From Deltaproteobacteria bacterium (GTDB lineage: Bacteria > Desulfobacterota > Deferrimicrobia > J040): 39,704 nucleotides of DNA. The DNA lies in the NCBI GenBank assembly GCA_003696505.1, contig RFHC01000059.1, positions 1 through 39,704 of the forward strand, in the 5' to 3' direction. The translations under genes were made by a program, and so were the position numbers. The notes beneath the pieces were generated by a model. It ran no database searches. It worked only from the letters and a program-made list of their open reading frames with translations, and had not been told where the DNA came from. Shown here piece after piece: positions 32,891-38,296 of this stretch. How positions within the stretch are numbered: the stretch's first letter is position 1; each line of letters opens with the position of its first letter.

Positions 32891-33871
32891 GTGCGGGAAG
32901 CGGAACACTACACGAGGGAAAACGGGAAGCTCCGCTGCGCTCTCTGTCCGCACCGGTGTCTGATTGCTGAAGGAAAGAAAGGGCTCTGCGGCGTCAGGGA
33001 AAACAGGGGCGGGAAACTCTACGCCCTCACTTACGGGAAGGTGGCGGCCGTCGCCGTCGACCCCGTGGAAAAGAAACCCCTCTACCACTTCTACCCGGGC
33101 AGGGATATCCTCTCCGTCGGCTCGGTAGGCTGCAACTTCTCCTGCCTCTTCTGCCAGAACTGGCACCTCGTCGAAGGCCTGACACCCTTGAGAGACGTGA
33201 CACCGGAAGAACTCCTGGATGTTTCCCGGCGGCGGGGGTCCATCGGAATCTCCTACACCTACAACGAACCCCTCATCCAGTGGGAGTTCGTCCGCGACTG
33301 CGCCCGGGTCTTCCGGGAAGCCGGCCAGGTCAACGTCCTGGTGACGAACGGGTTCGTCAACGAGGGGCCCCTCCGGGAACTCCTCCCCCTCGTCGACGCG
33401 ATGAACATCGACCTGAAGTTCTTCCGGGAGGAGACCTACCGGAAAATCTCGAGAGGCTCCCTCGAGCCGGTCAAGAAGACGATACAGGTTGCATCGCAGT
33501 CGTGCCTTGTGGAGGTGACGACACTCGTCGTCACGGGACTGAACGACACGGAGGAGGAAATACGCGCCATCGTCGACTTCATCGCATCCGTTGACCCCTC
33601 CATTCCCTACCACATATCCCGCTACTTCCCCCATTACAAATACGACGCTCCGCCCACAGACGAGGGTTTCCTCCTCAGGGCGTACGAGATTGCCCGGGAG
33701 AAACTGGAATTCGTCTATCTGGGGAACGTCCTCATTCCCGGGACGGACGACACCCGGTGTCCCTCCTGCGGCGAACTCCTCATTTCCCGGCGGGGATATT
33801 CGGTGAAAATCAACTCTCTCAAAGGAGACAGGTGCGGCTCATGTGGACGCAGGCTCAACATCGTCGTCTGA
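32891..33871 (+). CDS. AmmeMemoRadiSam-type radical SAM enzyme (AmrS-like)
   Basis: CALCPHRCLIAEGKKGLCGVRENRGGKLYALTYGKVAAVAVDPVEKKPLYHFYPG, SVGCNFSCLFCQNW. Confidence 0.93.
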   Translation: MREAEHYTRENGKLRCALCPHRCLIAEGKKGLCGVRENRGGKLYALTYGKVAAVAVDPVEKKPLYHFYPGRDILSVGSVGCNFSCLFCQNWHLVEGLTPLRDVTPEELLDVSRRRGSIGISYTYNEPLIQWEFVRDCARVFREAGQVNVLVTNGFVNEGPLRELLPLVDAMNIDLKFFREETYRKISRGSLEPVKKTIQVASQSCLVEVTTLVVTGLNDTEEEIRAIVDFIASVDPSIPYHISRYFPHYKYDAPPTDEGFLLRAYEIAREKLEFVYLGNVLIPGTDDTRCPSCGELLISRRGYSVKINSLKGDRCGSCGRRLNIVV

Positions 33872-34725
33872 GAGGGGCATTCGCGTGTTTTTTCCTGGCC
33901 CTCCTTCTCTGCTTCCCGATTTCGTCGATGGGGAGGAGCGACGAGGTCCCCCCGACGTATCAGGACCTGCTGAAAAATTACCGGGAGGTGAGGAGGAAGT
34001 ACCGGACTCTGGAATTCCTCTCTCTCGGGATTTTTCTCGCCGTGGGCATCGGGCTCACCCTCTACGCGGTGAAACTCAGGCAGCGGAGACTCACCCCTGA
34101 GGAGGCAGCGGGAGCATACCCCCTCCTTGAACTGGGAGACCGGGATTCCTGTCGCACCCATCTGAAAGAGCTTTCCCTGAAAAGCCACCCGGTGGCGGTA
34201 AGAAATCTCGGCGGCACCTCCAGCGCCTCTGCCGTAATCGCTGTGAACGAATCAGACGAAACCTTCATCCTCGAACCCATTTCCTTCCCCGTCACCGAAG
34301 GGGAGAAGGTCATCGTGGAATACATCTACGAGGAAGTTCCCTACTCCTTCATCACCAGCGTCGAATCAATCGGGAAGGGCGACGAGGTGAGCCTCCAGAT
34401 CCCTTACTTCATCAAATACACGCAGAGGCGCAAGGCCAGGCGGAAGAAACCGCTCCCCCTGGAAGAAGCCAGGGTCATCCTCCCCGGCGGGATGACGAGG
34501 TCGGTCATAGACGTAGGTCCCGGCGGCATCGGTTTCGAGGGAGAGGACATTCGAGCGGGGACGACAATCACGCTCGGAGTCACCCTTCCCGGGTCGAAGC
34601 TCTGGAAGGTGGAAGGAAAAGTCGTCTACGCGAAAGAGGGGCGGACGGGATTCGCCTTCACCTCTCCCCCTTCCGGATTCCTCTCTGAACTCGCCCTCTA
34701 CCTCTCCGGAAGGGGATACAGGTAA
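33841..34725 (+). CDS. Membrane-anchored PilZ-domain (YcgR-like) protein
   Basis: TM segments, PilZN-like YEEVPYSFITSVESIGKGDEVSLQIP, QRRKARRKK (RxxxR) and DVGPGGIGFEGE. Confidence 0.8.
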   Translation: MWTQAQHRRLRGAFACFFLALLLCFPISSMGRSDEVPPTYQDLLKNYREVRRKYRTLEFLSLGIFLAVGIGLTLYAVKLRQRRLTPEEAAGAYPLLELGDRDSCRTHLKELSLKSHPVAVRNLGGTSSASAVIAVNESDETFILEPISFPVTEGEKVIVEYIYEEVPYSFITSVESIGKGDEVSLQIPYFIKYTQRRKARRKKPLPLEEARVILPGGMTRSVIDVGPGGIGFEGEDIRAGTTITLGVTLPGSKLWKVEGKVVYAKEGRTGFAFTSPPSGFLSELALYLSGRGYR

Positions 34726-35008: not shown

Positions 35009-36391
35009 CTACACCTCGATGTTCTTCCTCTTTATCTTCTCTATGAGAGTGGTCCTTTTTATCCCGAGGAGGGATGCTGCCATCTCCTTGTTTCCGCCGG
35101 CCATCTTAAGGGCCTTTTTTATCATTTCAATTTCCAGACGGTCCACGGCTTCCTTCAGATTCACGGGGAAGGGGTTTTCAGCCGCCACCAGCTCGTCTCC
35201 GGGGATGACCGTCCTCTTCCCGGTCCTCATCTTTTCCGGCAGGTCCTCCACGGTTATCTTCCCCTGTCCCTTGATGACCACGATTCGCTCCACCAGGTTT
35301 TCCAGTTCTCTGACGTTTCCGGGCCAGGGATAGGAGAGGAGAATTTCCATCGCCTCGTCCGTAACCCCCTCCAGGTGCCTCCCCTTTTTCTCGTTGTAGA
35401 GGTCAATGAAGTAACTGAGGAGAAGGGGAATGTCCTCTTTCCTCTCCCGGAGGGGCGGGATGCGGATGGGTATCACGTTGAGGCGGTAGTAGAGGTCCTC
35501 GCGAAACCTCCCCTGCCTCACCTCCTCTTCCAGGTCCTTGTTCGTCGCCGCGATGACCCGGACATCGACCCGAATCGTCTTCGTCGACCCGACGGGCTCG
35601 AACTCCTTCTCCTGGAGGACGCGGAGCAGTTTCACCTGGAGTTTGGGACTCATCTCCCCGATTTCGTCGAGAAAGATGGTGCCGTGGTTTGCCAGTTCGA
35701 ACCTTCCCGCCCGCGGCGCCACCGCACCCGTGAACGCCCCCTTCACGTGTCCGAAAAGTTCCGACTCGAGCAAGTCCTCCGGGATGGCACCGCAGTTGAC
35801 GGGCACGAGGAGGTTGTTGGCGCGAGAACTGTTGTAGTGAATCGCCCGCGCAATCATCTCTTTTCCCGTCCCCGACTCCCCGAGGATGAGGATGGTCGAG
35901 TCGGTGTCCGCCACCTTCTCCACCAGCGAGAGGACCTCCATCATGGCGGGTGATGTCCCGATGATGTTCTCGAAGGAATACTTGTTGCGGACCTGCTTCC
36001 GGAGGGTCACGTTCTCCCTCCGGTATCGGGAATGTTCCAGAGCTTTCAGGACGAGGAGGCGCACCTCATCAATCTTGAATGGTTTCGTGATGTAGTGGAA
36101 TGCCCCGAGCTTCATCGCCTCCACGGCCGTCTCGATGGTGCCGTAACCCGTCATCATGATGACCTCGCATTCGGGCTGAAGCTCCTTCGCCGCCCGAAGC
36201 ACCGTGAGGCCGTCACACCCGGGCATCTTCAGGTCGGTCAGGACCACGTCGTAGCGCTTCTCGTCTATCTTCTTCAGCGCTTCGTCCCCCGTCCGGGCAG
36301 TGTCTATTTCGAGCGAGAGGCCGGAGAAAACCTCCACCAGGATGTCAAGGATGTATTCCTCGTCGTCGGCAATGAGGAGTCTCTTGCCCAT
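35009..36391 (-). CDS. Sigma-54-dependent response regulator (NtrC/FlrC/FleQ type)
   Basis: Receiver VVLTDLKMPG, GESGTGKEMIARAIH, GAFTGA, Fis-type HTH MAASLLGIKRTTLIEKIKRK. Confidence 0.95.
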   Translation of the reverse strand: MGKRLLIADDEEYILDILVEVFSGLSLEIDTARTGDEALKKIDEKRYDVVLTDLKMPGCDGLTVLRAAKELQPECEVIMMTGYGTIETAVEAMKLGAFHYITKPFKIDEVRLLVLKALEHSRYRRENVTLRKQVRNKYSFENIIGTSPAMMEVLSLVEKVADTDSTILILGESGTGKEMIARAIHYNSSRANNLLVPVNCGAIPEDLLESELFGHVKGAFTGAVAPRAGRFELANHGTIFLDEIGEMSPKLQVKLLRVLQEKEFEPVGSTKTIRVDVRVIAATNKDLEEEVRQGRFREDLYYRLNVIPIRIPPLRERKEDIPLLLSYFIDLYNEKKGRHLEGVTDEAMEILLSYPWPGNVRELENLVERIVVIKGQGKITVEDLPEKMRTGKRTVIPGDELVAAENPFPVNLKEAVDRLEIEMIKKALKMAGGNKEMAASLLGIKRTTLIEKIKRKNIEV

Positions 36392-36499: not shown

Positions 36500-36548
36500 C
36501 CGTCAAATATTCGTGTCAAATTTTTGGCACCTCCCCCCCTTTTGACGG
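36500..36548. repeat. Inverted/direct repeats (CCGTCAAA, TGTCAAA, TTTGACGG), candidate activator binding sites
   Basis: CCGTCAAA at 36500-36507, TGTCAAA at 36514-36520, TTTGACGG at 36541-36548. Confidence 0.5.
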
Positions 36549-36622
36549 GAATATCCGGGGGAAAGGCGCTCTAACCCCCTGAAAAACCGACCTTCGGAAT
36601 CGCGAAGGGGGCGCATGCCCGC

Positions 36623-36637
36623 TGGCACGCTTCTTGA
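36623..36637 (+). promoter_or_regulatory. Sigma-54-like (-24/-12) promoter for flhG-fliA
   Basis: TGGCACG-CTTC-TTGA versus consensus TGGCACG-N4-TTGC. Confidence 0.7.
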
Positions 36638-36671
36638 GAACATTTTCAACGCTACTTCATCTTTTTGAAAA

Positions 36672-37541
36672 ATGGAGCAGGGGGAAATGACGGGGACCGT
36701 CGAAAGAAAGTTGAGGGTCGTTTCCATCTCCAGCGGAAAGGGGGGCGTCGGGAAGACGGTCCTCACCCTCAACCTGGCACACATCTACCAGAGTCTGGGG
36801 CACCGGGTCCTGGTCATCGACGGAAACCTGGGGAACGGAAACGTGGACTCCCTCTTCCGGAGTCTGAGCGAATATTCCCTCGTGGACGTTGCCCGGGGAG
36901 TGGTCCCCATCGGAAAAGTTCTCAAGAGGACTCCCTCCGGCATCTTCTTCCTCCCGGCCGGGTCAGCCCTGGGAACGACAACCTCTCTCACGACGGAGGA
37001 GAAGCTGACCCTCTTCTCCGAACTCGACTCTCTCGAAGATGTGGCGGACCTGGTCCTCGTGGACTGCCCTTCTGGAATTCACGACGTGACTCTTTTCTTC
37101 GTCCGCTCCTCCACCGACCTGGTCTGCGTGACGACCCCGGAAATCACCTCCGTCATCTCCACGCTCAGCTTCCTCACTCTCCTCTCCTCGCGGGGCGAAA
37201 AAGAGGCCGGGATAATCGTCAACATGACGGAAGACGACGGCGACGGGACGAACACCTTCGAAGTCATCTCCGAACAGGTCGGGAAGGAAGGGGGCATGAA
37301 GGTTCACTACATCGGCCACTTCCCTTACGACTACACCGTCATCGAGTCGATTCGTTTTCTCCAGCCCCTCGTGGAAAAGGAGGGGAAAGGCCACCTGAGG
37401 GGATACCTTCTCAACATCGCCCAGGAGATTCTCCGGAATCCTCCGGAGGAAAAGATAAAGAAGTGTCAGCAATTTTTCACCCGTCGTCTCCTCAGAGAGG
37501 AGCACGACACAATCTTCAAAGCAAACGAGGTGGGACAATGA
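36672..37541 (+). CDS. flhG: MinD/ParA-like flagellar number regulator FlhG/FleN
   Basis: VSISSGKGGVGKTVLTLNLAHIYQSLGHRVLVIDGNLGNGNVDSLF; directly followed by fliA; alternative start at 36687. Confidence 0.9.
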   Translation: MEQGEMTGTVERKLRVVSISSGKGGVGKTVLTLNLAHIYQSLGHRVLVIDGNLGNGNVDSLFRSLSEYSLVDVARGVVPIGKVLKRTPSGIFFLPAGSALGTTTSLTTEEKLTLFSELDSLEDVADLVLVDCPSGIHDVTLFFVRSSTDLVCVTTPEITSVISTLSFLTLLSSRGEKEAGIIVNMTEDDGDGTNTFEVISEQVGKEGGMKVHYIGHFPYDYTVIESIRFLQPLVEKEGKGHLRGYLLNIAQEILRNPPEEKIKKCQQFFTRRLLREEHDTIFKANEVGQ

Positions 37542-38296
37542 GACAGCAAGCCGCCAGAGTCACTGAAATGACCAGGAAAAAGAGGCTCTCCCGCGAGGAG
37601 AGAGAGGCGCTCATCCTCGAATATCTCCCGAAGGTCCGCTACGTGGCGGGACGGCTCGCCATGAAACTCCCGAGCCACGTGGAGATGGAGGACCTCATCT
37701 CCTGCGGAATCACGGGGCTCATCGACGCCGTGGACAGGTTCGACCCGGCGAAGAACGTGAAGTTTTCCACCTACGCAGAGTTCCGCATCCGGGGAGCCAT
37801 GCTCGACTACCTGAGGGAAATGGACTGGTTCCCCCGCTCCATCCGGCAGAGGGCGAACGCCCTCCAGCAGATTTACGCCGACCTGGAGGCTCACCTGGGA
37901 CGGCCCCCCGAGGAAGAAGAGGTGGCGCGGGAACTGGGAATCACCGTGGAGGAACTGAGGAAGGAACTCTCCCTCATCTCAGGAATTTCCCTCTTCTCCC
38001 TGGACGACCTGGACGAGAACGACGAGTCCACCTTCTCCAACCGGAAACACCTGGCTGCGTATCTCCAGGAGAAGAGGAACGATGAGGAGTTCCTCCGCGA
38101 CATGAAGGAACTCCTGGCAAAGGCAATCGAGGAGCTTCCGGAGAACGAGAAACTCCTCATCTCCCTCTACTACTACGAAGAGATGACGATGAGGGAGATT
38201 GGAGCGATTCTCGGACTCACCGAGTCGCGAATCTGCCAGATTCACAACCAGGCAATCCTCCGCCTGCGCGGAAAGATAAAGAAAGCCCTCGCCTGA
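37538..38296 (+). CDS. fliA: RNA polymerase sigma factor FliA (sigma-28)
   Basis: YLPKVRYVAGRLAMKLPSHVEMEDLISCGITGLIDAVDRFDP, DWFPRSIRQRA, region 4 LTESRICQIHNQAILRLR; ATGA overlap with flhG. Confidence 0.95.
   Translation: MRQQAARVTEMTRKKRLSREEREALILEYLPKVRYVAGRLAMKLPSHVEMEDLISCGITGLIDAVDRFDPAKNVKFSTYAEFRIRGAMLDYLREMDWFPRSIRQRANALQQIYADLEAHLGRPPEEEEVARELGITVEELRKELSLISGISLFSLDDLDENDESTFSNRKHLAAYLQEKRNDEEFLRDMKELLAKAIEELPENEKLLISLYYYEEMTMREIGAILGLTESRICQIHNQAILRLRGKIKKALA

Follow-up and report, generated by a model that had tools for sequence, protein, structure and literature searches.

The window analysed here, a 39,704-nt stretch of a Deltaproteobacteria bacterium genome, contains a gene for an NtrC/AtoC-type sigma-54 activator that is transcribed divergently from flhG-fliA, with a promoter and a set of repeats in the region between them (Table 1). 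The activator had been recognised by its GAFTGA motif in a sequence-only reading of this DNA, and its full architecture bears this identification out: matches to PF00072, PF00158 and PF02954 (HTH_8, Fis-type) all exceed their cut-offs and lie in the order receiver, AAA+ domain (with GAFTGA) and HTH_8, as expected of NtrC-type activators. The receiver (98.9 bits to PF00072, with D53 within TDLKMP) is canonical and looks intact. On the other side, flhG encodes a MinD-like ATPase of FlhG/FleN type, with the deviant Walker A motif SGKGGVGKT and a gene beside fliA. Its start is likely the ATG at 36687, which agrees with the N-terminus in the nearest relative compared; an alternative ATG upstream, at 36672, is possible, and has no Shine-Dalgarno sequence. 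The product of fliA belongs to the FliA/WhiG sigma-28 family (TIGR02479, 273.5 bits against a curated cut-off of 189.6). The flhG stop and fliA start codons overlap as ATGA (37538-37541), and one transcript would therefore carry both genes, linking sigma-54 to sigma-28.

Table 1 Features of the activator-flhG-fliA locus (positions in the window)
Feature	Position	Strand	Remarks
Membrane-anchored YcgR/PilZ-like protein	33757..34725	+	Next to the activator gene both in the window and in G001
NtrC/AtoC-type sigma-54 activator gene	35009..36391	-	Divergent from flhG; receiver D53, AAA+ GAFTGA, HTH KRTTLIEK
Upstream half-site GTCAAAT	36502..36508	+	Direct repeat D1 (GTCAA at 36502); 13 nt before main box
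Main box GTCAAATTTTTGGC	36515-36528	+	14-bp inverted repeat, FleQ/FlrA type; 94 nt before -24 element
Downstream half-site TTGAC	36542..36546	+	Ends 18 nt after main box
Sigma-54 (-24/-12) promoter TGGCACGCTTCTTGA	36623..36637	+	TGGCACG-CTTC-TTGA; pattern match
flhG, MinD-like ATPase	36687..37541	+	ATG 36687 after AGGGGG
fliA (sigma-28)	37538..38296	+	

Upstream of flhG-fliA we find what appears from its sequence to be a convincing sigma-54 promoter. The element has GG at -24 and TTG at -12 at the fixed spacing, 5' of the operon, and the pattern TGGCACG-N4-TTG occurs only once in the window, against 0.01 matches expected from shuffled sequence. The sequence-only reading had placed a -24/-12 match about 50 nt before flhG; indeed, 34 nt separate the end of the element from the first ATG and 49 nt separate it from the more probable start codon, and transcription is predicted to begin near 36649. 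The -12 element carries an A in place of the usual C, as does its counterpart (TGGCACATATCTTGA) in the nearest relative. The presence of rpoN, on which the earlier claim was to be checked, was confirmed in the window genome (217 bits at G000:C189). The same promoter pattern recurs in this genome as strong -24/-12 elements 5' of genes that were recognised by eye, from their first codons, as pilin-like and PII-like (glnB) (L032, L033, L040).

Three repeats (CCGTCAAA, TGTCAAA and TTTGACGG) had also been noted 75-125 nt further upstream; they lie within 36500-36548, about 77-121 nt from the -24 element. Their positions are confirmed and an enhancer role is supported, yet the description as a generic TGTCAAA repeat is better replaced by that of a FleQ/FlrA-type box with half-sites: the middle repeat is best read as the 14-bp inverted repeat GTCAAATTTTTGGC, and the three repeats as one array. 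Similar boxes at target promoters are a feature of FleQ/FlrA regulators, with published forms including GTCAAT-NN-ATTGAC for Pseudomonas aeruginosa FleQ (PMC10723142), GTCAaAAAAtTGAC as the consensus for P. putida FleQ (PMC6120874), and the repeats GTCA-N6-TGGC for FlrA and yGTCA-N6-TGACr for DVU2894 (PMC4641369). The window box is one base off a perfect inverted repeat and fits the FlrA form. Taken alone it is only modestly unusual, GTCAAN4TTGRC giving one match in the window where 0.13 are expected.

Elsewhere in the 2.05-Mb window genome, the perfect form GTCAAN4TTGAC is found at two places only, both 5' of -24/-12 elements. One is before fliL-fliM, where the box (GTCAAAAAATTGAC) equals the P. 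putida FleQ consensus and TGGTATGGTCCCTGCA follows 42 nt downstream, and the other lies in the gap between motB and a gene for a TPR protein, TGGCACGCCTTTTTCA being found 96 nt further downstream. The G001 genome has a single perfect box, which is the one at flhG. A combined pattern (TTGRC-N31..90-TGGYAYG-N4-YTK) matches the window genome twice, at flhG and fliL, and its control not at all, so that the proposed search for the repeat before other flagellar genes returned fliL-fliM as a second site with box and promoter. A left-half pattern (GTCAA...TGGYAY) gave no convincing further targets, and the site on contig C155 has a poor -12 element (TTTCA). In front of flgF, on contig C184, a -24/-12 element is present and no GTCAAA/TTTGAC half-site was detected within 200 nt.

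In a set of 395 genomes from the phylum, box and promoter together yield 61 matches in 52 genomes, compared with 4 for the reversed pattern used as a control. The genes 3' of these matches, where read, often include fliA, fliL or motA, and also genes for PAS-domain and TPR proteins; several matches (e.g. L155, L156, L162, L171 and L173) lack a clear flagellar gene downstream and may be due to chance. Of 59 phylum matches, 14 have an extra TTGAC that ends 18-20 nt beyond the box and one has it at another offset, although several of the 14 come from close relatives, and the number of independent events is consequently smaller. In family f95 (L153, L154), a multi-PAS protein gene follows a FleQ-type box and promoter, and its product is possibly a sensor of the same circuit.

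Conservation of the repeats was expected from the earlier claim, and repeats and promoter are indeed retained before flhG-fliA, or before fliA, in relatives. The nearest relative compared (G001, of the same family as the window genome) has all three genes together, with identities of 77% for the activator, 42% for flhG and 67% for fliA. Its flhG is preceded by GTCAATTTTTTGT-GTCAATAAATTGAC, by a TTGAC whose end lies 18 nt further on and finally by the -24/-12 element, with the box GTCAATAAATTGAC 94 nt before that element; the spacings (13, 18 and 94 nt) are thus identical in the two genomes. In G001, however, the activator gene shares its strand with flhG, in contrast to the divergent arrangement in the window. 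The array has thus been kept with flhG-fliA while the activator gene was turned round, which makes flhG-fliA its likely target. In family f3 (G026, G065), GTCAAAGC(A/G)TTGAC and CGGCATAGGTCTTGCA precede flhG behind an activator of 56-57% identity, and in family f2, which belongs to the same class, the order is activator, box, -24/-12 element and then fliA directly (G003, G006, G009, G012); in G011 and G014 a gene for a histidine kinase separates the activator gene from the box. The activator gene stays beside the box in three families (f1, f2 and f3).

This comparison bears directly on an alternative in which the array serves the activator's own divergent promoter, by autoregulation, and not flhG-fliA. 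The array does lie 110-155 nt upstream of the activator start codon, overlapping a weak sigma-70-like match on the minus strand, and autoregulation via a similar repeat has been proposed for DVU2894 of Desulfovibrio vulgaris (PMC4641369). Yet in G001, G003, G006, G009 and G012 the box comes only after the activator gene has ended, with flhG or fliA following in the same orientation, a position from which it cannot act on an activator promoter; a box of this kind is also present at fliL, at a distance from the activator gene. We consequently regard autoregulation as the sole role of the array as unlikely.

The protein that reads the box is very probably the neighbouring divergent regulator, judging by its recognition helix. 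The best PDB match of its HTH is FleQ, and although this match is weak (E 0.0012), the two have I(K/R)RTTL(I/V)EK in common, which gives the activator a FleQ-type HTH. With its phosphorylatable receiver (D53), as opposed to the degenerate, phosphorylation-incompetent one of FleQ/FlrA proteins, it is not filed as FleQ; it probably acts on DNA like FleQ without being FleQ. Among 40 phylum genomes with box and promoter, 35 carry the RTTLxEK signature, as against 20 of 40 without (Fisher p = 0.0006, relatedness ignored), so that the signature is also found in half of the genomes that lack the strict box; four of the five box genomes without it have RTT(L/F)xEM instead. Given about a dozen further sigma-54 activators in the window genome, it is conceivable that the promoter is real and the box is read by one of these; however, the KRTTLIEK helix is confined to the divergent activator among the intact sigma-54 activators of this genome, the activator gene adjoins the box in the three families above, and in other families (e.g. 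G062, G086, G282, G284 and G301) the HTH signature is encoded within about 200 nt of the box, making a different reader slightly less probable still than autoregulation. Least credible is the view that the repeats are chance AT-rich palindromes and the sigma-54 promoter alone matters, which the expectation of 0.13 for the window box would permit, as the significance of the array derives from its identical spacings in G001, the co-occurrence of box and promoter genome-wide (both perfect copies being at flagellar loci with promoters) and the 61 versus 4 matches in the phylum.

Potential inputs to the activator are suggested by its neighbours. We detected no histidine kinase gene adjoining it in the window, but kinase genes adjoin its orthologues in G011, G014, G026 and G065, and the adjoining genes at L161:689-1513, L163:1611-2498, L062:7976-9619 and L063:3698-5461 likely encode the cognate kinases. 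The YcgR/PilZ-like protein encoded on its other side is a possible c-di-GMP input: it has 33% identity to its counterpart in G001, which matches PilZ at 5.8e-6, while its own match is to PilZNR, weak (E 0.004) and below the cut-off, with an RxxxR motif in the translation.

FlhG is a plausible source of feedback in this circuit. The N-terminal DQAxxLR helix, known as the FlhF-stimulating element of FlhG (PMC12826062), is absent from the window protein and from all class members read, and present in many other FlhG proteins read from the phylum; given this absence, a role for the window FlhG as a dedicated anti-activator is plausible. In front of flgF-flgG, the genome encodes another FlhG-like protein and, after it, one that resembles FliA (L064, G000:C184, 23-1284); the latter has no detectable sigma region 2 and scores 47.9 bits against the cut-off of 189.6. 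The end of contig C90 carries flhA and a fragment of flhF, and C90 and C184 may therefore be contiguous. Searches for sigma-28 promoters (TAAA-N13..17-GCCGATAA-like) around the cassette and before flagellin returned nothing convincing, and the flagellin gene, being apparently inside an operon, yields no local sigma-28 consensus.

From the promoter, array, conservation, operon overlap, rpoN and HTH match observed above, we infer steps of binding, phosphorylation, transcription and feedback as follows. The divergent response-regulator activator, once phosphorylated, would bind the main box together with the half-sites at 36502 and 36542, loop to RNA polymerase-sigma-54 at the promoter and drive flhG-fliA. 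FliA (sigma-28) would then relay the signal to genes further along the cascade. Feedback on the activator by FlhG, a FleN/MinD-like ATPase, is plausible, and fliL-fliM and the operon beside motB are probably further targets of this activator. We consider it highly probable that the intergenic region serves such sigma-54 control of flhG-fliA by the phosphorylated divergent activator at a FleQ/FlrA-type array, with a FliA cascade and FlhG feedback. Weighing against this are the imperfect window box and -12 element, the lack of an adjacent kinase gene in the window, the poor -12 element on C155, the flgF promoter without a half-site and the occurrence of the HTH signature in genomes that lack the strict box. 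The original proposal that the activator drives flhG-fliA from this enhancer is thus largely supported by the G001 array, the fliL-fliM box and the FleQ-like helix.

Several relatives appear to retain this cascade beyond the flagellum itself. Neither FlhA nor flagellin was detected in G001, and FlhA was not found in G003 (99% complete), G009 (one contig, 96%), G012 (97%) or G014 (92%), FlhA alone being the test of a flagellum in family f2, most genomes of which are multi-contig drafts from which sequence may be missing. FlhA, flagellin and fliLM are all present in the window genome. In all five of these relatives (loci L164, L158, L157, L160 and L161) the activator, box, promoter and fliA are kept, with flhG in some, and FliA lies above the family cut-off in each of those scored (G001, G003, G009 and G014). 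These five seem to have lost the flagellum, and their cascade would then either serve non-flagellar genes or be decaying; decay is disfavoured in that FliA is conserved, with 55-67% identity to that of the window. A potential explanation, which we put forward tentatively and at slightly less than even odds, is that activator, box, sigma-54, (flhG) and sigma-28 form a self-contained two-sigma switch, which persists after the flagellum is lost and controls non-flagellar genes via FliA in these genomes. In the class of the window genome, the cascade is perhaps not strictly flagellar.

Control of fliA by sigma-54 is already known from Geobacter, Vibrio and Pseudomonas, and what is new here is consequently a variant and not the wiring: as read from sequence, a FleQ-type enhancer paired with an activator whose receiver looks phosphorylatable, a third half-site that recurs in other genomes and apparent retention beyond the flagellum. 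Sigma-28 of this lineage is tied to sigma-54 in a way that joins the FleQ/FlrA and FlrC/FlgR designs, which are usually separate, and persistence after apparent flagellum loss raises the question of which other genes are controlled. Moreover, the action of FlhG on regulators beyond FlrA/FleQ has been called open in a recent review (PMC12826062), and this becomes testable at a locus that combines activator, flhG and fliA and in which FlhG is without the FlhF-stimulating helix. Among known systems, Pseudomonas FleQ with its flhA/flhF-fleN-fliA promoters shares the 14-bp box GTCAA(T)..(A)TTGAC, the use of sigma-54 promoters and a FleN(FlhG)-FliA target operon (PMC10723142, PMC6424431, PMC6120874), and has the same recognition-helix residues as the window activator; however, its receiver is not phosphorylatable (PMC10723142), and in the window the activator gene stands beside flhG-fliA and no flhA-flhF is in front. 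Vibrio FlrA and Desulfovibrio DVU2894 share the GTCA-N6-TGGC and yGTCA-N6-TGACr repeats and a flagellar role, although DVU2894 is described as a one-component activator without an N-terminal domain, its motif predicted (PMC4641369), in contrast to the two-component-type receiver found here. In E. coli, an AtoC-like activator, a MinD-like ATPase and fliA likewise belong to one circuit (AtoSC-MinD), but there MinD contacts the kinase AtoS, and the part of that account available describes no FleQ-type box with a sigma-54 promoter (PMC10963238). Finally, Geobacter sulfurreducens shares a strong -24/-12 promoter and control of fliA, from sigma-54 to sigma-28; as far as the available part of the published work goes, no enhancer or activator is defined for its flhA-flhF-parA-fliA operon and, unlike in the window, RpoN controls the whole flagellar operon (PMC2725144).
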